Assembly (NCBI GenBank): GCA_002215645.1
Contig: NGFI01000013.1
Span: 1 to 64,000, forward strand
DNA: 64,000 nt
Source of the DNA: Gemmatimonadetes bacterium 2013_60CM_65_52
Lineage (GTDB): Bacteria; Gemmatimonadota; Gemmatimonadetes; Gemmatimonadales; Gemmatimonadaceae
Direction: 5' to 3'
The notes beneath the pieces are model-generated. The model worked only from the letters and a program-made list of their open reading frames with translations. It did not search any database and was not told the DNA's origin. Shown piece by piece: positions 45,351 to 57,428 of this stretch (position 1 is the first letter of the stretch; each line of letters starts with the position of its first letter). Made by a program: the position numbers and the translations under genes.

Positions 45351-45521
45351 TTGGTTCTGCTGTTCCGGCGCACAAAGAAATCGCAAAGACCGACCCCGCA
45401 GAAGGCCCGGCGGTGTACCCTTCTGGGAGGCGACCCGGCCCACCGACGGCCTCGCACGTTTGTGCCGTACACCATGTTACGTGACGGCCATGTTACATTG
45501 CTGAGGCCCCTACTCTTCAAC

Positions 45522-45782
45522 ATGGACACACTCGCAGTCATCCGGGAGCTCGCAGAGCGCCAATTCGGCGCGGAGCCGGGGACGGTGGATCCCGACCTCC
45601 CGCTTCAGGACATCGGCATCGACTCGCTGGGCTATCTCGAGTTCCTGTTCGAGCTCGAAGATGCCGTGGGTGTGCCCATTCCTCCCAAGGACGTAACCGA
45701 CGTCCGGACGCTCCGGGAGCTGGCGTCCGTGGTCGATCGGCTCATCGCAGAGCACCCGGCACCGGCAGAACCGCGGCAGTGA
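45522..45782 (+). CDS. Acyl carrier protein
   Basis: An 86-residue ACP: IRELAERQFGAEPGTVDPDL, LQDIGIDSLGYLEFLFELED with the phosphopantetheine Ser in DSL, and VPIPPKDVTDVRTLRELASV. It heads a three-gene operon: its TGA overlaps the GTG of the ketosynthase gene. It is likely dedicated to that ketosynthase rather than to housekeeping fatty-acid synthesis. Confidence 0.93.
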   Translation: MDTLAVIRELAERQFGAEPGTVDPDLPLQDIGIDSLGYLEFLFELEDAVGVPIPPKDVTDVRTLRELASVVDRLIAEHPAPAEPRQ

Positions 45783-47023
45783 CCCGCCGCAGGGTGGTCG
45801 TGACCGGACTTGGCGTGGTCTCGCCGGTCGGGCAGACCGCGAACGACTTCTTCGACAATCTGGTCCGGGCGCGATCGGGAATCGGACTCGTTCCCGACGC
45901 CATGCAATCCAGCGGCGAACCGCTCGTGGCCGGCCAGGTGGCCTTCGATCCAGCGCATTACTGGGCGCCGCATGTGTCGGCACAGCTCGACCGCGCGACC
46001 CAGTTTGCGCTCGTCGCCGCGCGGCAGGCCATCGACGATGCAGCGCTCTCGCTGAGCGAGGAAGAATCCTTTCGTGCCGGCGTCTACTGGGGCACAGGGC
46101 TCGGTGGCGCCACGAGTATCGAAGACTCATACCGTTTGCTGTTCGGCTCACAACCTCCACGCATTCGTCCGACGTCCGTCGTGATGGGCATGAGCAACGC
46201 CGCGGCGGCTCAGATCTCCATCACTCACGGGTTTCGCGGACCGATGTTGAACATCGCGACGGCCTGTTCGTCGTCGGCCGCGAGCACCGGGGAGGCCTAT
46301 CGCGCGATTCAGGCGGGACACGCGGACGTCGCGGTGGCTGGCGGCTCGGAAGCGCTCATCACGCGCGGCAACATTCTCGCCTGGGACGCGATGCGTGCGC
46401 TCGCGCACGCGGACCCGGTGGATCCGTCACGCAGCTGCAAGCCGTTCTCGCTGAATCGCACCGGCATCGTCCTCGGCGAAGGCGCCGCGGCCACGATTCT
46501 CGAGAGCGCGGAGCACGCGGAGCGGCGCGGCGCGCACATCTATGCCGAGGTGGCGGGTTACGGGAATGCGTCCGATGCGCGCCATATCTCCAAGCCGGAT
46601 GCATCCGGCCAGGTGCGTACGATTCGGCTGGCTCTCGAGGATGCCGGACTGACGCCGGATGCGATCGAGTACGTCAACGCGCACGGCACTGCGACGCAGG
46701 TCGGTGACGTCGTCGAGACCGACGGCCTCAAACAGGCGTTCGGCGCGCACGCGCGAAGGCTCTGCGTGTCCTCCACCAAGGCGCTGCACGGGCATCTCAT
46801 GGGTGGAGCCGGTGCCATCGAATTTCTCGCTGCGCTGCTGGCACTCCAGCACAACGTGGTGCCGCCGACTGCACATCTCGATGTCCCGGACCCGAACTGC
46901 GACCTCGATTACGTGCCGACCTTGGCGCGCGAGGTTCCGCTGAGCGCGGTGATGTCGAATTCGTTCGGCTTCGGCGGCATGAACGCGGTGCTCATCGCCT
47001 CCCGTTATCGCGAGGCGAGATGA
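45779..47023 (+). CDS. Beta-ketoacyl-ACP synthase (FabF-like)
   Basis: A 414-residue ketosynthase from GTG 45779. Active-site Cys163 in NIATACSSSAAS, His in VNAHGTATQVGD and His in KALHGHLMGGAG form the Cys-His-His triad; RRVVVTGLGVVSPVG starts the thiolase fold and SFGFGGMNAVLI ends it. It condenses malonyl-ACP with an acyl thioester. Partners on both sides (ACP before, PLP enzyme after, each overlapping by four bases) imply it makes an acyl-ACP substrate for an alpha-oxoamine synthase. Confidence 0.93.
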   Translation: MTRRRVVVTGLGVVSPVGQTANDFFDNLVRARSGIGLVPDAMQSSGEPLVAGQVAFDPAHYWAPHVSAQLDRATQFALVAARQAIDDAALSLSEEESFRAGVYWGTGLGGATSIEDSYRLLFGSQPPRIRPTSVVMGMSNAAAAQISITHGFRGPMLNIATACSSSAASTGEAYRAIQAGHADVAVAGGSEALITRGNILAWDAMRALAHADPVDPSRSCKPFSLNRTGIVLGEGAAATILESAEHAERRGAHIYAEVAGYGNASDARHISKPDASGQVRTIRLALEDAGLTPDAIEYVNAHGTATQVGDVVETDGLKQAFGAHARRLCVSSTKALHGHLMGGAGAIEFLAALLALQHNVVPPTAHLDVPDPNCDLDYVPTLAREVPLSAVMSNSFGFGGMNAVLIASRYREAR

Positions 47024-48228
47024 AGGATCTCCAGGAGCTGGCCGCCTGGTTGGCGTCGCGCGACACCGAGCACGATCCGCTGCGCCCCACGACACTGCCC
47101 GATCCCACGTTCATCAGCGATGGGCGCGAGTTCGTGTCGTTCAGCACCAACAATTACCTGGCACTCGCCAGCAGTGCGCGTGTGAAAGCGCGCGCGGCCG
47201 AAGGGCTCCAGCGCTTCGGAGTCGGCAACTGCGAATCGCGTCTCCTCGGCGGCAATCTCGAGGTGTACGTGGCGCTCGAGGCCAAGCTCGCCGCGATCAA
47301 GAAGAAGGAATCCGCGCTGCTCTTTGCCACGGGATACCTCGCCAATCTCGGAGTCATTCCGGCTCTCGTGCGCTCGGGGCAGCTTGCCCGTGCGTACGGT
47401 TACTCGCCGTCCACCCGATGGAAGCACGCGTTCTTCTCGGACGAGTTCAATCATCTGAGCATTCGCGAGGGCATCCGCGCCTCGGGCGCGCCCTCGTTCG
47501 CCTACCGCCACCTCGACATGGACGATCTCGCCGGGAAGCTGCGTGCATCCACGGCGGAGATACGGATCATCATCACCGATGGTGTGTTCAGCCAGCATGG
47601 CGACATCGTCCCTCTTCCCGACATGCTGGCCCTCGCGGAGCAGTACGACGCGGTGGTCTACATCGATGATGCCCACGGCACCGGCGTGCTCGGTCCCACC
47701 GGAGCGGGGACCACGGAGCACTTCGGCATCGAGGACAGCCGTATCATCCACATGGGCACGCTCAGCAAGGCGTATGGGAGCATCGGTGGGTTCGTGGCGG
47801 TCGACGAGTACGTCGCCGGCATCCTGCGCGTGAGTTGTCCCGCCTACGGGTTCACGTCCACTATCCCGCCCGATCAGGCCTACGGTCTTCTCGAGGCCAT
47901 CGACATGGTGGTGGACGAGCCCGAGCGCCGCATTCGCCTCTGGGAAAATCAGCGCTACTTCGTGCGATGCATGCAGGAGGCGGGTTTCACGCTGTCGTCC
48001 ACGCAAACACCGATCGTCCCGCTGCACGTAGGGGACGAGGGTGCATGCGCGCGACTCGCGGGAGCGTTGCGCGCCGAAGGCGTCCACGTGGACGCAATCA
48101 TGTTTCCTGCCATTGGGCCGGGGGACAGCCGGCTGCGGTTCATCATGAATGCTCACCACACCGCCGAACAGATCGATCATGTGGTGAACCTGCTGAGTCG
48201 GCTGGATGTGACGCGCGGCACAGCATAG
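47020..48228 (+). CDS. Alpha-oxoamine synthase family PLP enzyme (SPT/KBL/BioF-like)
   Basis: A 402-residue fold-type I PLP enzyme. PLP Lys250 is in MGTLSKAYGSIGG; YIDDAHGTGVLG holds the pyridine-binding Asp and stacking His; the DEFNHLSIREGI segment supplies His145; ITDGVFSQHGDIVPLPD is the family's signature strand. Members join an amino acid to an acyl-CoA or acyl-ACP: 8-amino-7-oxononanoate synthase, glycine C-acetyltransferase, 5-aminolevulinate synthase or serine palmitoyltransferase. The dedicated ACP and ketosynthase favour a long-chain acyl-ACP substrate, as in bacterial sphingoid synthesis, but substrate specificity cannot be read. Confidence 0.88.
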   Translation: MKDLQELAAWLASRDTEHDPLRPTTLPDPTFISDGREFVSFSTNNYLALASSARVKARAAEGLQRFGVGNCESRLLGGNLEVYVALEAKLAAIKKKESALLFATGYLANLGVIPALVRSGQLARAYGYSPSTRWKHAFFSDEFNHLSIREGIRASGAPSFAYRHLDMDDLAGKLRASTAEIRIIITDGVFSQHGDIVPLPDMLALAEQYDAVVYIDDAHGTGVLGPTGAGTTEHFGIEDSRIIHMGTLSKAYGSIGGFVAVDEYVAGILRVSCPAYGFTSTIPPDQAYGLLEAIDMVVDEPERRIRLWENQRYFVRCMQEAGFTLSSTQTPIVPLHVGDEGACARLAGALRAEGVHVDAIMFPAIGPGDSRLRFIMNAHHTAEQIDHVVNLLSRLDVTRGTA

Positions 48229-50803: not shown

Positions 50804-53419
50804 TCACGCGCTCAGCAGCTCGGCAAGCCGCGACAGCGTTCCGGCGAGATCTGGAACATCCGTCAGCACGCCGGCGACCGGGTCGTGGCCAAGGCGTTCC
50901 ATTCGTTGCACGGCGTTCACCATTGTGAAATGGCGCGGATTCAACCCCTCGCTCACCTCGTCCCACAGCAACGGCATGGAAACCGGAGCGCCCGGAAGGG
51001 GACGCAGACTGAAAGGCGCCACGATCGTCTGTCCGTGCCGGTTCTGGAGATAATCGAGGTAGACCTTGTCGCCGCGCCGGGTTACATGCCGCGTAATCGT
51101 CGCGATGTCCGCAACTTCCCGCAAAATTACACGTGCCAGCAGCTCGCCCAGTGTACGCGACTGCTCGTAGGTGCACAGGCGCGCGAGCGGAATCATGATG
51201 TGCAGCCCCGTCTTGCCCGTGGTCTTCACGTAGTGCGGCAGTCCGATCTGCTCGCACAGGGCGTGCAATGCTTGCGCACATCGGATCACATCGGAAAACG
51301 GCGCCTCCTTCGGATCCAGATCGATGACACACCAATCGCATTGCTCGAGCGAGCCGATGCTGCTGGCCCAGATGTGAATCGGAATGCAGCCGAGGTTCGC
51401 GATGTAGAGCAGCGAGTCCAGATCGTCGCAGACGAAGAAACGAATGTCGCGTTGCGTGTCATTGCTCCAGATAGGGTGCGTGCGGATCCAATCGGGCGCG
51501 AACTCCGGCGCATCCTTCTGATAGAACTGCTTGCCCTCGATGCCGTCTGGAAAGCGTGTCATCACGAGCGGACGATTCTTCAGATAGGGAAGAATCCACG
51601 GTGCGATGTCGCGGTAATACGCGATGAGATCGCCCTTGGTGTACTTCTCCGCCGGCCAGTAGATCTTGCCGAGGTTGGAAAACGTGAGCTTCTTCGCTGT
51701 AGGCGAGGCAGCGTCCTCGGCCGGCGTCGAGGCGGGTGGCGGCTCCGCCGATTCGGGAAATAGCTCTACCGGCCATACCTGTCGCACGCATTCCTCCGGG
51801 CGCTTGTCGTCGCGCAGACGCAGAAACGCCGCATGACGCAGCAGTCCATCCGGCGTCATCTCACGATACCGCACCTCCACCACGTACTTGGGCTCCACCC
51901 ACGTGGTCGTCTTCGTATCGGGAATCTGCTCGCTCGGCAACGGCTCCTTCGACGGCGACGTCGCCATGCCGTGGCAGGGCGGGTCGCGTCGGATGAGGGG
52001 CATCAACATCTCCATCAACTCGGAGAGGAGCCTGTCGTCCATACCCGTGCCGACACGTCCCACATAGACCAACCGGCCGTCGGCGAATTCGGCGAGTTGC
52101 AAGGCGCCGAGATGCACGCGGCTGCCCTTCGGCTGCGTGAATCCGACGATGGCGTAGTCGCCCGTGCGCTCCGCCTTGATCTTGAGCCAGTTCGACGCGC
52201 GGCCGGCCGCGTACGCGCTATCCGACTTCTTGGCGATGATGCCCTCGAAGCCGAGTCGCCCCACCTCACGCATGAGGAGCTCGCCCTCGCGCTCGAGGTA
52301 ATCCAATCCGCGGACGATTCCCAGCTTCGGCGCGAGCTCAAGCACCAGCTTGCGTCGCTCGATGAGCGGCACCGGGCGAACGTCGAAGTCCTCGAAGGCA
52401 ATCAGGTCGAACGCGAAATACGTCGCGGGAAGCTCCACGGCGGCGTGTCCGACGTCGATCGACGATTTCAGCCGGCCGCGACGCTGGAGCCGCGAGAAGC
52501 TCGGCCGTCCCTGATCGTCCAGGACGACAACTTCACCGTCGAGGATGCACGCGTCATATGGAAGCGCCTTGACAGCCCTCGCGACCTCCGGAAACACATC
52601 CGTGTAATCGTTGCCGTTACGCGTCAGAAGAAGCACGTCGTTGCCGCGCTTGGCCGCGAGCAGACGGTAACCGTCGAGCTTGAGCTCGAACAGCCAGCCG
52701 TCACGCGTAAAAGCGCCCTCGTGTTGCTCCGCGAGCATCACCTTCACCGTGCGCGGGTCGAGCGAGCCCTGCACGGCACCCAACGATTCGAGTCGCTCGC
52801 GAATCCCACTCGACGGACGGACGCCGTCTTTCACCTGCTCGACGGTGAGCCCCGAGAGCACCGAGGCCTCATCGAACTCGTCGCCCGGCGATTTGACGTA
52901 GGCGTCGCGCTCCTTGATGAGGAGCCAATCCTTCTCGCTCTTCTTGATCTTCACCAGCGTCCACTTGCCACGGAGCTTGTAGCCCTTCAGCTCGAACAGC
53001 AGCTTCCCCTTCTCGAGTCCCTCGCGCCAATCCTCGAGTGCCACCCACTCGCCGCGGTCCCAGACGATGATGCCGCCCGCGCCATAATTACCCTTCGGAA
53101 TGACGCCCTCGAAGTCGCCGTACTCGAGCGGATGATCTTCGACGCGCACCGCAAGCCGCTTGTCCGCCATGTCGTACGAGGGGCCACGCGGCACCGCCCA
53201 CGACTTGAGCACGCCGTCCATCTCGATGCGAAGGTCATAGTGGAGGTGACTCGCCGCGTGCTTGTGGACGACGAACAGCCGCCCGCCAGTCACCTTCTCC
53301 GCGGTGCCGACGGGCTCGGGCGACGAATCCTCCGAACGCTTCGCGCGGTAGGTGGCGAGGCTGTCCGCTGGCTCGGCGGCGAGCTTCGGCGTATCTTCGG
53401 AATCGCCCCTTGCTGTCAT
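50804..53419 (-). CDS. ligD: Multidomain DNA ligase D (PE-ligase-polymerase)
   Basis: An 871-residue LigD (ATG 53419; a GTG at 53425 is in frame). Domains in order: 3'-phosphoesterase at 45-180 (FVVHKHAASHLHYDLRIEMD), ATP-dependent ligase at 230-530 (motif I FELKLDGYR with the adenylated Lys at about 247; ILDGEVVVLDDQGRPSF; EGIIAKK), then the primase-polymerase at 590-870 (KLTFSNLGKIYWPAEKYTKG; VIDLDPKEAPF with the metal Asp pair; KTGLHIMIPL). It performs non-homologous end joining with Ku. This domain order differs from the Pol-PE-Lig order of mycobacteria but matches other bacteria. It is divergent from ku. Confidence 0.96.
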   Translation of the reverse strand: MTARGDSEDTPKLAAEPADSLATYRAKRSEDSSPEPVGTAEKVTGGRLFVVHKHAASHLHYDLRIEMDGVLKSWAVPRGPSYDMADKRLAVRVEDHPLEYGDFEGVIPKGNYGAGGIIVWDRGEWVALEDWREGLEKGKLLFELKGYKLRGKWTLVKIKKSEKDWLLIKERDAYVKSPGDEFDEASVLSGLTVEQVKDGVRPSSGIRERLESLGAVQGSLDPRTVKVMLAEQHEGAFTRDGWLFELKLDGYRLLAAKRGNDVLLLTRNGNDYTDVFPEVARAVKALPYDACILDGEVVVLDDQGRPSFSRLQRRGRLKSSIDVGHAAVELPATYFAFDLIAFEDFDVRPVPLIERRKLVLELAPKLGIVRGLDYLEREGELLMREVGRLGFEGIIAKKSDSAYAAGRASNWLKIKAERTGDYAIVGFTQPKGSRVHLGALQLAEFADGRLVYVGRVGTGMDDRLLSELMEMLMPLIRRDPPCHGMATSPSKEPLPSEQIPDTKTTTWVEPKYVVEVRYREMTPDGLLRHAAFLRLRDDKRPEECVRQVWPVELFPESAEPPPASTPAEDAASPTAKKLTFSNLGKIYWPAEKYTKGDLIAYYRDIAPWILPYLKNRPLVMTRFPDGIEGKQFYQKDAPEFAPDWIRTHPIWSNDTQRDIRFFVCDDLDSLLYIANLGCIPIHIWASSIGSLEQCDWCVIDLDPKEAPFSDVIRCAQALHALCEQIGLPHYVKTTGKTGLHIMIPLARLCTYEQSRTLGELLARVILREVADIATITRHVTRRGDKVYLDYLQNRHGQTIVAPFSLRPLPGAPVSMPLLWDEVSEGLNPRHFTMVNAVQRMERLGHDPVAGVLTDVPDLAGTLSRLAELLSA

Positions 53420-53502
53420 GCGCACCTTTGGAGACCGTAAGGAGTTGTCATCCTGCGCGACGGAATCGCGCCCGGAATGCCGTCACCCCGACGTATCCGA
53501 CC

Positions 53503-54312
53503 ATGCCTGCCCGCTCCATCGCCAACGCCACGATCTCCTTCGGGCTCGTCTCCGTTCCCGTCAACCTGTACTCGTCCGCCGAAAGCAAGGCGAGTGTCTC
53601 GTTCAATATGCTGCACAAGAAGTGCGGCGGGCGGCTCAAGCAGCAATACATCTGCCCGAAGGACAACAATGAGGTCGTCGAGCGCGCGGAGACCGTCAAG
53701 GGTTACGAGTTCTCGAAGGATCAGTACGTGGTCTTCACGCCGGACGAGCTGAAGACCCTGGAAGAGAAGTCCACGAACATGATCGACGTCATCGAGTTCA
53801 TTCCGCTCGCGCAGGTGCAACGCGAGTACGTGGACAAGGTCTACTATCTGGGTCCCGACAAGGGCGGCGACCGCGCGTATCGTCTGCTCACGGAAGCGCT
53901 CATGGACACCGGCCGGGCGGCACTCGGCCAGTATGCGTCGCGGGGACGTCAGTATCTCGTGCTCCTGCGTCCCGTCAACGGCATCCTCGCCATGGAAACG
54001 CTGCACTACGCCGACGAAGTGCGCTCCACGAATGAGGTTCCCGTACCAGAAGGTCAGGTCAAGCCGCAGGAGCTCGCACTGGCGCGGCAGCTCATCGAGG
54101 CCGCGTCGAACGACGCGTTCGAGCCCTCGAAGTACAAGGACACCGTGCGCGAGCGCGTCATGGAGTCCATCCAGCGCAAGGTGGAGGGCCAGGACATCAC
54201 GGCCGAAGCCCCGGCCGCGGCGGGCGGCAAGGTCATCGATCTCATGGAAGCGCTCAAGGCGAGCCTCGCCGGCGTGAAGTCGGAGGGCAACGCCAAGGTC
54301 AAGGCGTCGTGA
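53503..54312 (+). CDS. ku: Ku homodimer protein
   Basis: A 269-residue bacterial Ku: ARSIANATISFGLVSVPVNL, Zn-free bridge KKCGGRLKQQYICPKDNNEV, GYEFSKDQYVVFTPDELKTL, IDVIEFIPLAQVQREYVDKV, LGPDKGGDRAYRLLTEALMD, and a C-terminal KVIDLMEALKASL tail for LigD contact. It binds DNA ends and recruits LigD. ATG 53503 follows the divergent region of 83 bp; the frame is open upstream to 53410. The next gene's GTG overlaps its stop. Confidence 0.96.
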   Translation: MPARSIANATISFGLVSVPVNLYSSAESKASVSFNMLHKKCGGRLKQQYICPKDNNEVVERAETVKGYEFSKDQYVVFTPDELKTLEEKSTNMIDVIEFIPLAQVQREYVDKVYYLGPDKGGDRAYRLLTEALMDTGRAALGQYASRGRQYLVLLRPVNGILAMETLHYADEVRSTNEVPVPEGQVKPQELALARQLIEAASNDAFEPSKYKDTVRERVMESIQRKVEGQDITAEAPAAAGGKVIDLMEALKASLAGVKSEGNAKVKAS

Positions 54313-55028
54313 AGCTGCTCACCGGCACGAGCGGCTTCGCGTTCAAGGAGTGGAAGGGATCGTTCTACCCGAAGGAATTGAAGGACGATGCCATGCTCGG
54401 CTACTACGCCGGCAAGTTTCCGACGGTCGAGATCAACAACACCTTCTATCGGCTGCCGAAGGAGCAGGTGCTCATTGATTGGGCGTCGCGCGTGCCGGAC
54501 TCGTTCACGTTCGCGATCAAGGCAAGCCAGCGGATCACGCACTACGCTCGTCTCAAGCCCGAGAGCGTCGGCCACGTCGAATATCTGATGAAGAGCACCG
54601 CCGTCCTTGGCGCGCGGCTCGGGCCGGTGCTGTTTCAACTGCCGCCCAACTTCCAGAAGGACGTCGAGCGCCTCAAGGTCTTTCTCGAGTGCCTGCCGCT
54701 CGACCGTCGGTCCACGATCGAGTTCCGCCACGAGAGCTGGTTCGACGAGACCGTGTTCGACGCGCTGCGTGCCCGCGACGTCGCGATGTGCATCAGCGAG
54801 CAGCCTGACTTCGCGTCGCCCTTCGTGGTGACGGCCGGCTGGGGATATGTGCGCCTCCACAAGCTGGACTACGATTCGGCCGGGCTCACGGAGTGGGCTC
54901 GGCGGCTGAAGCAGCAGCCGTGGACGGAGTCGTACGTCTACTTCAAACACGATGAGGGAGAGGGATCCGGTCCGCCGGCCGTGAGCGCATTCATCGAGCA
55001 ATTCGGGGCTGCCGCGTCGCACAGCTAG
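54309..55028 (+). CDS. DUF72-family TIM-barrel protein
   Basis: A 239-residue DUF72 protein: LLTGTSGFAFKEWKGSFYPK, YYAGKFPTVEINNTFYRLPK, SFTFAIKASQRITHYARL, LFQLPPNFQKDVERLKVFLE and FRHESWFDETVFDALR, then YVRLHKLDY and YVYFKHDEG. The YxRLH and YVYFNN-like motifs define the family, an uncharacterised TIM barrel often near DNA-repair genes. GTG 54309 overlaps the ku stop by four bases, so it belongs to the NHEJ operon. Confidence 0.94.
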   Translation: MKLLTGTSGFAFKEWKGSFYPKELKDDAMLGYYAGKFPTVEINNTFYRLPKEQVLIDWASRVPDSFTFAIKASQRITHYARLKPESVGHVEYLMKSTAVLGARLGPVLFQLPPNFQKDVERLKVFLECLPLDRRSTIEFRHESWFDETVFDALRARDVAMCISEQPDFASPFVVTAGWGYVRLHKLDYDSAGLTEWARRLKQQPWTESYVYFKHDEGEGSGPPAVSAFIEQFGAAASHS

Positions 55029-55046
55029 GCCACCGCGCTCCGCGCC

Positions 55047-57428
55047 ATGCTCGCATCTGACGATCTCCTCTGGGGGTGGGATCCCACTCCGGGAATCGTT
55101 TCCGTGTGGGCGGACAATTCCGGTCGTGCGCACGTCTGGCGCCGCGATCCTGCCACAGGAGAACTGCGACACGAGCGCGAGAGGTTCCGTCCGTGGCTCC
55201 TTCTCGACCGTCTCGACGACCTCGGGCATCTCGGCGATGCATTTGGTCCCGAATCCAGGGCCAGCCGTCCATTTCAATTCCGTGAGCTGAACGGGCCTGG
55301 CGCGCTGCGGTTCCACGTGAGTGCGGATGACGGCCGCGCTCTGGTCAATGCAATTCTCGCTGGCGCGTCGCGGCGATTGGACCGAAGGCTCACGAGTCTC
55401 CGCGACCTATCGTCGCAGGGTGTGCTCGAGCTGCCGCCTGAGGAGCAGTACCTCGTTGCAACCGGCCGGACGTATTTTCGCGATCTCGCGTTCGATCAGT
55501 TGCATCGACTCCAGTTCGATCTGGAGACGACCGGACTCTTCGCGCAGCGCGATCGAATGTTCATGGTTTCCGTTCGGTACCACGACGGATCCACCGAAGT
55601 GCTCGAAGCGCACGGCGAGGGCGACGCGGCGGAGGCGGATCTCATTCGCCGCCTCGTTGACCGCATCCAGCGCGCCGACCCCGACGTCATCGAGAATCAC
55701 AACCTCCACGGATTCGACCTTCCCTTTCTCGACCGGCGCGCGCGCCGGCTGAGCGTTCCGCTGATGCTCGGACGTGTCGGTCCGCCGGGCCTTCGACAGC
55801 GCGGTGCGCGGCGGGGAGTTGTAGCCGGCAATCCCGATGAGCCGCGTCGCGTGCGGTTCGTGGCGCCGGGCCGCGAGCTCATCGACACCCTCGACGCGGT
55901 CCGGCGACACGACTTCTCGACGCGCGAGCTGCCGGGCCACGGGCTGAAGGTCGTCGCCAAGCACCTCGGCATCGCGGCGCCAGATCGCGAGTACATTCGC
56001 GGCGATCTCATTTACGCCACGTACCTCACGGACCCCGAGCGCGTGCGCCGCTACGCGACCGATGACGTCGAGGAGGTCGCCGGTATCTCGCGTGTGCTGG
56101 GCGGAGCCGCCTATGCGCTGGCGCAGATGACACCGCGCCGATATGAGCGTCTCGCCGATGCGGGTCCCGCCACAGGAGTCATCGACCCATTGCTGGTGCG
56201 CGCATACATGCGCGCAGGCACAGCATTGCCGGCGCATGAGGACAGCGACGGCACACCACACAGCGGTGCCGCGCTCTACCTGTTCGCCTCCGGCGTCGCC
56301 CATCGCGTCGTCAAGGCGGACGTCGCCAGTCTGTATCCGTCGCTCATGCGTGCCTATCGCATCGGCCCCGCTCGTGATCGTTTAGGCGCGCTCCTCGCGC
56401 TCGTTGACGGCCTCGTCGAGCGCAGGCTCGACGCCAAGGCAAAAGCTCGCCAGGCGCCGGCCGGATCCGCCGAGCGTCATACGCATGAGGCGATGTCCGC
56501 GGCGCTCAAGATCGTGGTGAACTCCGCGTATGGGTATCTCGCTGCTGGCGGCGGGCTGACCCGATTCGCCGACGTCCATGCGGCGAATGAAGTGACGCGA
56601 CGTGGACGGGAGGTCCTTGGCTTCATGTGCCGGGAGCTCGAGGCGCGCGGCGTGACGTTGCTGGAGGCCGACACCGATGGCGTCTACTTCGCCGTACCGG
56701 ACACCTGGACCGAGGCGGATGAGCGTCGCGTCGTCGCCGACGTGGGAGCGCTGCTTCCTCCTCTCGTGCAGCTCGAGTTCGATGGTCGTTACGCCGCGAT
56801 GCTCTCCCACGAGCCGAAGAACTACGCGCTGCTCGGCTATGACGGCACCCTGTTACTGCGTGGTGTCGCGTTTCGGTCGAGCCGGTCCGAGCCCTTCGGT
56901 GAACAATTCATTCGCCGGTCGCTCAAGCGGCTTCTCGTGGGAGATGTCGTTGGTGTCCGCGACATCTATCTGGCGACCATCGACGCGTTGAAATCTCGTA
57001 CGGTGTCGACACACGATGTCTCGTCGCGCGTGCGTCTCACGAAGAGTCCCACACAGTATGAGCGCGTGCGTGCGCGACGTCGCGAGCTGCCCTATGAGGC
57101 CATGCTCGCCAACGGCCGCGGCGACTGGAGCGTCGGCGACCGCATCCGTGTGTACCGTAAGCAGAACGGCGAGGGCGGTCTCGTCGACACCGCGGGAGAT
57201 GATCCGATCGCGGAGCCGGCGAGAGACTATGACGCGGAGTACTACGTGCGGCTGCTGCGCGAGACGTACGCGGCGCGCATGGCGCGTGCGTTCACGAAGG
57301 AGGACTTTGGGACGATGTTCGCTGATCCCGATCAGTTCTCCCTGTTCACGCCGCCGATCGAGTCGATCTGTCCGATTCTGACTTCGTTACCGCGTGGAGC
57401 TTTCGAGATGAGCGGCGCCGAGGCCTGA
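55047..57428 (+). CDS. Family B DNA polymerase
   Basis: A 793-residue PolB. The 3'-5' exonuclease has LQFDLETTGLF (Asp158/Glu160), VIENHNLHGFDLPFLDRRAR (Asp224) and RRYATDDVEEV. The polymerase has KADVASLYPSLMRA (motif A), KIVVNSAYGYLAAGGGLTRF (motif B, Lys/Tyr) and LLEADTDGVYF (motif C, DTD). It is shorter than E. coli Pol II and could fill ends during repair. It starts 19 nt after the DUF72 gene, so it is likely in the ku operon, an unusual pairing in a bacterium. Confidence 0.95.
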   Translation: MLASDDLLWGWDPTPGIVSVWADNSGRAHVWRRDPATGELRHERERFRPWLLLDRLDDLGHLGDAFGPESRASRPFQFRELNGPGALRFHVSADDGRALVNAILAGASRRLDRRLTSLRDLSSQGVLELPPEEQYLVATGRTYFRDLAFDQLHRLQFDLETTGLFAQRDRMFMVSVRYHDGSTEVLEAHGEGDAAEADLIRRLVDRIQRADPDVIENHNLHGFDLPFLDRRARRLSVPLMLGRVGPPGLRQRGARRGVVAGNPDEPRRVRFVAPGRELIDTLDAVRRHDFSTRELPGHGLKVVAKHLGIAAPDREYIRGDLIYATYLTDPERVRRYATDDVEEVAGISRVLGGAAYALAQMTPRRYERLADAGPATGVIDPLLVRAYMRAGTALPAHEDSDGTPHSGAALYLFASGVAHRVVKADVASLYPSLMRAYRIGPARDRLGALLALVDGLVERRLDAKAKARQAPAGSAERHTHEAMSAALKIVVNSAYGYLAAGGGLTRFADVHAANEVTRRGREVLGFMCRELEARGVTLLEADTDGVYFAVPDTWTEADERRVVADVGALLPPLVQLEFDGRYAAMLSHEPKNYALLGYDGTLLLRGVAFRSSRSEPFGEQFIRRSLKRLLVGDVVGVRDIYLATIDALKSRTVSTHDVSSRVRLTKSPTQYERVRARRRELPYEAMLANGRGDWSVGDRIRVYRKQNGEGGLVDTAGDDPIAEPARDYDAEYYVRLLRETYAARMARAFTKEDFGTMFADPDQFSLFTPPIESICPILTSLPRGAFEMSGAEA

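Follow-up and report, generated by a model that had tools for sequence, protein, structure and literature searches.

A conserved ACP-ketosynthase-oxoamine synthase operon in Gemmatimonadaceae and its possible role in making an amino-ketone lipid

What would a bacterium make with an alpha-oxoamine synthase (AOS) that is encoded together with its own acyl carrier protein (ACP) and its own condensing beta-ketoacyl-ACP synthase (KAS)? The question is raised by a three-gene locus in a stretch of 64,000 nucleotides from Gemmatimonadetes bacterium 2013_60CM_65_52 (assembly GCA_002215645.1, contig NGFI01000013.1, positions 1 to 64,000), here called the window. Characterized AOS enzymes are each tied to a distinct class of metabolite: heme, biotin, threonine breakdown, sphingolipids, sulfonolipids, and CAI-1 signals. 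The initial annotation of the window had compared the locus to sphingoid-base synthesis. We find that the operon is real and conserved, and that it is built around an uncharacterized AOS clade. We put at about 0.52 the probability that together the genes constitute a single operon devoted to an amino-ketone lipid of its own, in which acyl-ACP and a small amino acid would be joined to give a 2-amino-3-keto lipid.

The three-gene operon

All three genes lie on the forward strand. The first (45522-45782) encodes a dedicated ACP of 86 residues with the phosphopantetheine site IDS(35)L (Pfam PP-binding, E 2.7e-13). The second (45779-47023) encodes a FabF-type KAS of 414 residues (Pfam ketoacyl-synt, N-terminal part E 2.8e-47, C-terminal part E 3.6e-35), and the third (47020-48228) a pyridoxal phosphate (PLP) AOS of 402 residues that belongs to an unnamed clade (Pfam Aminotran_1_2, E 4e-42; trees; AlphaFold2 model). 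The GTG start of the KAS, at 45779, overlaps the stop codon of the ACP (GTGA), and the ATG start of the AOS, at 47020, overlaps that of the KAS (ATGA). The initial annotation had read both starts as overlapping the preceding stops, and the open frames lie exactly as it had placed them. It had also described all active sites as intact, and they are: Ser35 in the ACP, Cys163, His302 and His339 in the KAS, together with Lys334, and Lys250, Asp216 and His219 in the AOS. Its pairing of a dedicated ACP and KAS with an AOS is supported by Pfam, by the tree, and by the gene order in relatives.

AOS orthologues of 68-76% identity occur in 6 of 179 Gemmatimonadaceae genomes, the window's included, which represent three genera, and in 6 of 395 sampled genomes of the phylum. 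The ACP-KAS-AOS order is kept in all five Gemmatimonadaceae genomes, again counting the window's, in which the upstream side is visible; the sixth was left out of the count, its contig ending about 180 bases upstream of the AOS gene. The relatives' loci with this order are L033/L039, L035, L040/L112, and L113/L134 (gene calls in homologue loci were based on a codon-position GC score), and ACP homologues of 49-60% identity head the operon there. Between the window and L033, nonsynonymous divergence (pN) is 0.18 for the KAS, 0.29 for the ACP, and 0.16 for the AOS, against a synonymous divergence (pS) of about 0.63-0.68, which is saturated. All three genes are under purifying selection, and this, with the order kept in relatives, indicates that the triad is more than a chance arrangement. 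The nearest named counterparts are two Gemmatimonadetes metagenome-assembled genomes (MAGs), Gemmatimonadaceae bacterium Bin8.6 (L005), which belongs to the window genome's own genus, and palsa_1239 (L004).

The ACP of the triad is distinct from the housekeeping ACP, which adjoins FabF on another contig of the genome (C13). The KAS is 42% identical to the genome's FabF-like copy. It scores above the cut-off of the KAS II subfamily model PRK07314 (448 vs 387 bits) and below that of the FabF equivalog TIGR03150 (453 vs 494 bits).

An AOS clade outside the named families

Asp216, His219, Lys250 (the Schiff-base lysine), His145, and Arg371 are invariant in an alignment of 82 members, which places the window enzyme and its relatives in the AOS superfamily. 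All 82 also carry an insertion of exactly 15 residues (positions 124-138 of the window enzyme, codons 47389-47433), located after the Gly-rich helix and before the S-D-E-x-N-H strand. The insertion is missing from every BioF, KBL, and serine palmitoyltransferase (SPT) sequence aligned, and together with G-N-C-E-S-R it forms the signature of the clade. In the tree, 34 non-redundant members form one clade with support of 100/100 and a long stem, separate from BioF, KBL, and SPT; its closest relatives are KBL and ThAOS of Thermus thermophilus, with weak support. Neither the window AOS nor any of the six relatives tested reaches the cut-off of an NCBIfam equivalog model. The window AOS is a true alpha-oxoamine synthase, neither BioF nor KBL, and it belongs to a clade of its own outside the named families. 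A phylogeny against SPT, BioF, and KBL had been proposed in the initial annotation; it separates the enzyme from BioF and KBL, and it places it outside the SPT clade as well.

The AlphaFold2 model of the enzyme (pLDDT 93) has an ordinary AOS fold, which matches AOS structures in the PDB with Z values of 42-52. The best two, ThAOS (Z 52.1) and the SPT of Sphingobacterium (3a2b, Z 51.9), are tied, so that the fold cannot pick a subfamily. ThAOS is also the nearest solved structure by sequence, at 36-37% identity (PDB 7POA, 8S1Y; PMC11906848). It differs from the window enzyme in having Val79 where the latter has Ser73, in having no insertion, and in acting in vitro on short acyl-CoAs. We know of no ACP-KAS pair linked to ThAOS.

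Could the enzyme be a misannotated BioF or KBL that lies beside an accidental ACP-KAS pair? BioF is indeed the best-scoring named model (TIGR00858), and KBL and ThAOS are the nearest groups in the tree. However, the BioF score of 344 bits is below the cut-off of 426, as the KBL score of 312 is below 460, and both the conserved operon and the clade-specific insertion speak against such an origin. The initial annotation had set a place in the BioF clade with biotin genes nearby against its own proposal; what was found is a separate clade and no bioB. In the window genome (4.2 Mb, 97% complete, so that a missing stretch could hold one) nothing scores above the TIGR00433 cut-off for bioB, the best match reaching 37 of 225 bits. 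The genome has two further AOS genes, one on contig C10 and one on contig C9, and that on C10 is a KBL (473 bits vs the cut-off of 460) adjoining threonine dehydrogenase (TDH). With no bioB and a separate KBL-TDH pair, the BioF and KBL roles are either absent or covered elsewhere, and a misannotation of this kind is close to refuted.

The second further AOS bears on ceramide synthesis. The initial annotation had suggested looking for ceramide genes elsewhere in the genome, and a ceramide-type set was found on C9 (locus L037 1568-12187, about 328.6-339.2 kb of the contig). The locus holds an extended short-chain dehydrogenase (SDR), a fusion protein of 1647 residues, a PAP2 protein, and a YghO-like N-acyltransferase; the fusion consists of fatty acyl-AMP ligase (FAAL), acyl-CoA dehydrogenase (ACAD), ACP, and AOS domains, the AOS being last. 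Comparison with the ceramide genes of E. coli BL21 (PMC9386255) gave identities of 34% between the FAAL domain and AasR, 26% between the SDR and Epi, and 31% for the aca/YghO-like protein (E 4e-66). The predicted set is a full ceramide-type one. The joining of acyl-ACP synthetase, ACP, and AOS in one chain is notable in itself. In many other Gemmatimonadota (L007-L032), AOS sequences group with the Sphingobacterium SPT (24 entries, 100/100), which points to widespread synthesis of sphingolipids across the phylum.

Since the C9 set has its own fused ACP-AOS, the triad in the window constitutes a distinct second AOS system and is not the sole candidate for such chemistry in this genome; it is probably not the genome's ceramide synthase. 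The triad AOS might still be a second SPT that feeds a special acyl chain into the ceramide pathway. The epi and aca homologues on C9 would fit such a role, as would Ser73, which is as in SPT, and the dedicated ACP gene upstream, which recalls the rhodobacterial acpR-spt genes (Caulobacter CC_1162/CC_1163, E. coli BL21 ECD_02851-02854; PMC9386255). In those operons, as in the window, a dedicated ACP gene precedes the AOS and a Ser stands at the amino-acid-selecting position; an extended SDR of the epi type is also linked in some relatives of the window locus. However, a KAS lies between ACP and AOS in the window, in place of the acyl-ACP synthetase AasR, and the C9 locus has a fused FAAL-ACAD-ACP-AOS of its own. 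The window AOS is only 32% identical to the BL21 SPT, falls in another clade, carries the 15-residue insertion, and has no epi or aca beside it. Its scores with the three SPT equivalog models are far below the cut-offs (300 vs 640, 246 vs 500, and 191 vs 670 bits). When the family was forced together with SPT in a tree that included the BL21 and Sphingobacterium enzymes, the arrangement was rejected (AU p 0.00055). We consider a second SPT distinctly improbable. The likeness to sphingoid-base synthesis is thus plausible as regards chemistry and does not extend to family membership.

The predicted pathway and product

An AOS fed by an ACP has precedents. Some SPT enzymes prefer a dedicated acyl-AcpR (PMC9386255), and SulA, the cysteate acyl-ACP transferase (PDB 7U7H; PMC9304779), is an AOS that makes a 3-keto amino-lipid base from acyl-ACP, a trait that the window enzyme would share. 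In the pathway that we favor, the KAS would condense malonyl units onto an acyl chain and, with housekeeping reductases, shape the acyl group on the dedicated ACP. From its family membership, the AOS would then condense the acyl-ACP with a small L-amino acid at its alpha-carbon, releasing CO2 and giving a 2-amino-3-keto long-chain compound. The chemistry would be sphingoid-like, carried out by a non-SPT enzyme in parallel to the separate ceramide-type locus.

The choice of amino acid may be read from one position. The ThAOS Val79 position helps to set it, being Ser in SPT and in E. coli AONS, Val in KBL, and Thr in ALAS (PMC11906848). The aligned residue of the window AOS, Ser73, is invariant across the 82 members, and this favors serine or alanine over glycine; L-serine use by the enzyme would be compatible with it. 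In SulA, Lys281 replaces the alanine of Spt (PMC9304779). The window enzyme has Ser280 at the corresponding position, 30 residues beyond its Schiff-base lysine, and among the 82 members this position is Ser in 43, Cys in 38, and Ala in 1; it was placed by the distance from the Schiff-base lysine and by the Sphingobacterium SPT alignment, without the SulA sequence in the alignment.

The initial annotation had remarked on the lack of a ketoreductase and of other usual neighbors. This is true of the window locus, where no aasR, epi, or aca homologue was found beside the triad, and is not true of the system as a whole. In one relative (genome G022, L035 11415-12401) a gene for a 328-residue extended SDR begins inside the AOS stop codon, and its orthologues are no more than about 3 kb from the operon at L040 4412-5377 and L134 5887-6858; L040 was taken as genome G269, its ACP and KAS matches being equal to those of L112. 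All three genomes belong to one genus. A missing reductase is therefore a property of some loci and not of the system. The linked SDR and Epi share one broad type, with 28-31% identity over part of the length, and the SDR is a candidate for the ketone reductase of the pathway. In these relatives it would convert the ketone to an amino-alcohol; the window bacterium may use the compound unreduced or reduce it with an unlinked enzyme.

In prodigiosin synthesis, a KAS, an ACP, and an AOS also act together, through PigJ and PigH. By analogy, the window AOS might condense an unreduced beta-ketoacyl-ACP with the amino acid, and the resulting 2-amino-3,5-diketone would close to a hydroxypyrrole or pyrrolone. 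Such a route needs no ketoreductase, and the operon of condensing KAS, ACP, and AOS has none; moreover, amino-ketones made by an AOS can be converted to pyrroles in vitro (PMC11906848). On the other hand, the SDR linked in three relatives favors reduction of the ketone, and clade members that have no KAS nearby would need another source of beta-ketoacyl-ACP. The proteins also differ from the Pig pair: the window KAS is FabF-like (94 bits with the PigJ model vs a cut-off of 900), and the AOS is unfused, whereas PigH has ACPs fused to it. A pyrrole-type product is rather unlikely.

An amino-ketone lipid remains a reasonable product and our best guess; the compound is probably an unusual amino-lipid, neither biotin nor an ordinary ceramide. 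Several observations weigh against this assignment. No N-acyltransferase or head-group gene adjoins the triad, and the window genome has no convincing orthologue of the linked SDR, the best match being 36% identical. The KAS could supply something other than a saturated acyl chain. Most clade members outside Gemmatimonadaceae have no linked ACP or KAS, the two exceptions being a betaproteobacterial MAG (L054) and a Parvibaculum MAG (L057); as this holds for most proteobacterial homologues, a dedicated carrier is not essential to the AOS chemistry. Finally, we know of no product of any member of the clade.

Distribution, kinase neighbors, and surroundings

In a scan of 84,980 species genomes, 73 loci were found with an AOS 54-76% identical to that of the window. 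They are spread over Pseudomonadota (alpha, beta, and gamma), Bdellovibrionota, Planctomycetota, Verrucomicrobiota, Bacteroidota, and Gemmatimonadota, and the cultured genera among the hosts include Duganella, Massilia, Zoogloea, and Bradyrhizobium. A plasmid collection held no member of the clade, the best match being 39.8% identical. Among the open-access papers covered, on histidine kinases, Gemmatimonadota, Massilia, or Duganella in connection with such an AOS, none dealing with the clade was found.

Two-component genes recur beside the clade. In Massilia the order is AOS, response regulator, histidine kinase; in Duganella it is response regulator, histidine kinase, AOS; in Zoogloea and its relatives a hybrid kinase precedes the AOS, as a histidine kinase does in Gemmatimonadaceae bacterium Bin8.6. 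In the Parvibaculum MAG (L057 8357-14502), genes for a histidine kinase and a response regulator of the NtrC type follow ACP-KAS-AOS on the same strand. Of 31 loci, 8 (26%) have a histidine kinase within 1 kb, against 0.10 in control stretches, and 12 (39%) have a receiver domain within 2.5 kb, against 0.18. Linkage to sensor kinases is a trait that these homologues share with the autoinducer synthases CqsA, LqsA, and JqsA; JqsA of Oxalobacteraceae is a CqsA/LqsA homologue linked to a kinase and a regulator (PMC3566124). The AOS might therefore make a diffusible amino-ketone, later perhaps a hydroxyketone, that is sensed by the neighboring kinase, as in the CqsA/CqsS, LqsA/LqsS, and JqsA/JqsS pairs. 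However, the fold match to these synthases is clearly lower (Z about 43), the hydroxyketone autoinducer synthase model NF005526 gives 168 bits against a cut-off of 428, and no kinase-regulator pair adjoins the triad in the window. The kinases are of diverse types (CopS-like, dCache-PAS hybrid, HAMP with an NtrC-type regulator, DUF4118-GAF, and Reg_prop) and not one co-evolving receptor. Given these differing types and the modest size of the excess, the linkage may reflect regulation and not signal reception, and a signal synthase is unlikely, if the least so of the alternatives considered here.

At some loci the AOS also adjoins CusA/CzcA-type RND efflux operons, with a permease above the TIGR00914 cut-off (L033 11713-19750, L034 6247-10591, L042 4365-9893, and L062 4248-9934). 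The hosts are Gemmatimonadaceae, a gammaproteobacterial MAG, and Rugamonas, and in L033 a copper-type P-type ATPase comes next. The arrangement suggested a functional link between pump and AOS, which the count did not bear out, the association within 1-2.5 kb not being above that in control stretches (2 of 31 vs 0.06-0.08).

In the window itself, the triad is flanked upstream by a divergent DUF2779 gene and downstream, across a gap of 115 bases, by a TatA gene. The upstream gap (45444-45521, given on the forward strand) contains a direct repeat of CATGTTAC at 45473 and 45489 (45473-45496, 16-base period), just before the ACP gene and nowhere else in the window. It is not kept upstream of the operon in relatives and was for that reason rejected as an operon-specific regulatory motif. 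A promoter scan of the gap gave no sigma-70-like site, and an Rfam search of the window gave no match. Further along the window (50804-57428), divergent LigD and Ku genes are followed by genes for a DUF72 protein and a family B DNA polymerase, possibly an extended end-joining set. Elsewhere in the genome, long open frames on contig C3 (about 188-232 kb) encode twelve phosphopantetheine-binding domains and mark a large nonribosomal peptide synthetase or polyketide synthase cluster.

The clade recurs in at least six phyla, cultured genera included, and is unclaimed by curated NCBIfam equivalog models in the members tested. A more tentative idea is that the triad and its undescribed AOS clade give rise to a bacterial class of amino-ketone lipids, or of lipid signals, that is new and separate from the sphingolipids, the sulfonolipids, and signals of the CAI-1 type, with its production wired to envelope sensor kinases; we hold so broad a role to be possible and on balance doubtful. 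Because it includes an ACP and a KAS, the operon of Gemmatimonadaceae is the most self-contained version of the system to express, and its product could be found by ordinary lipidomics.

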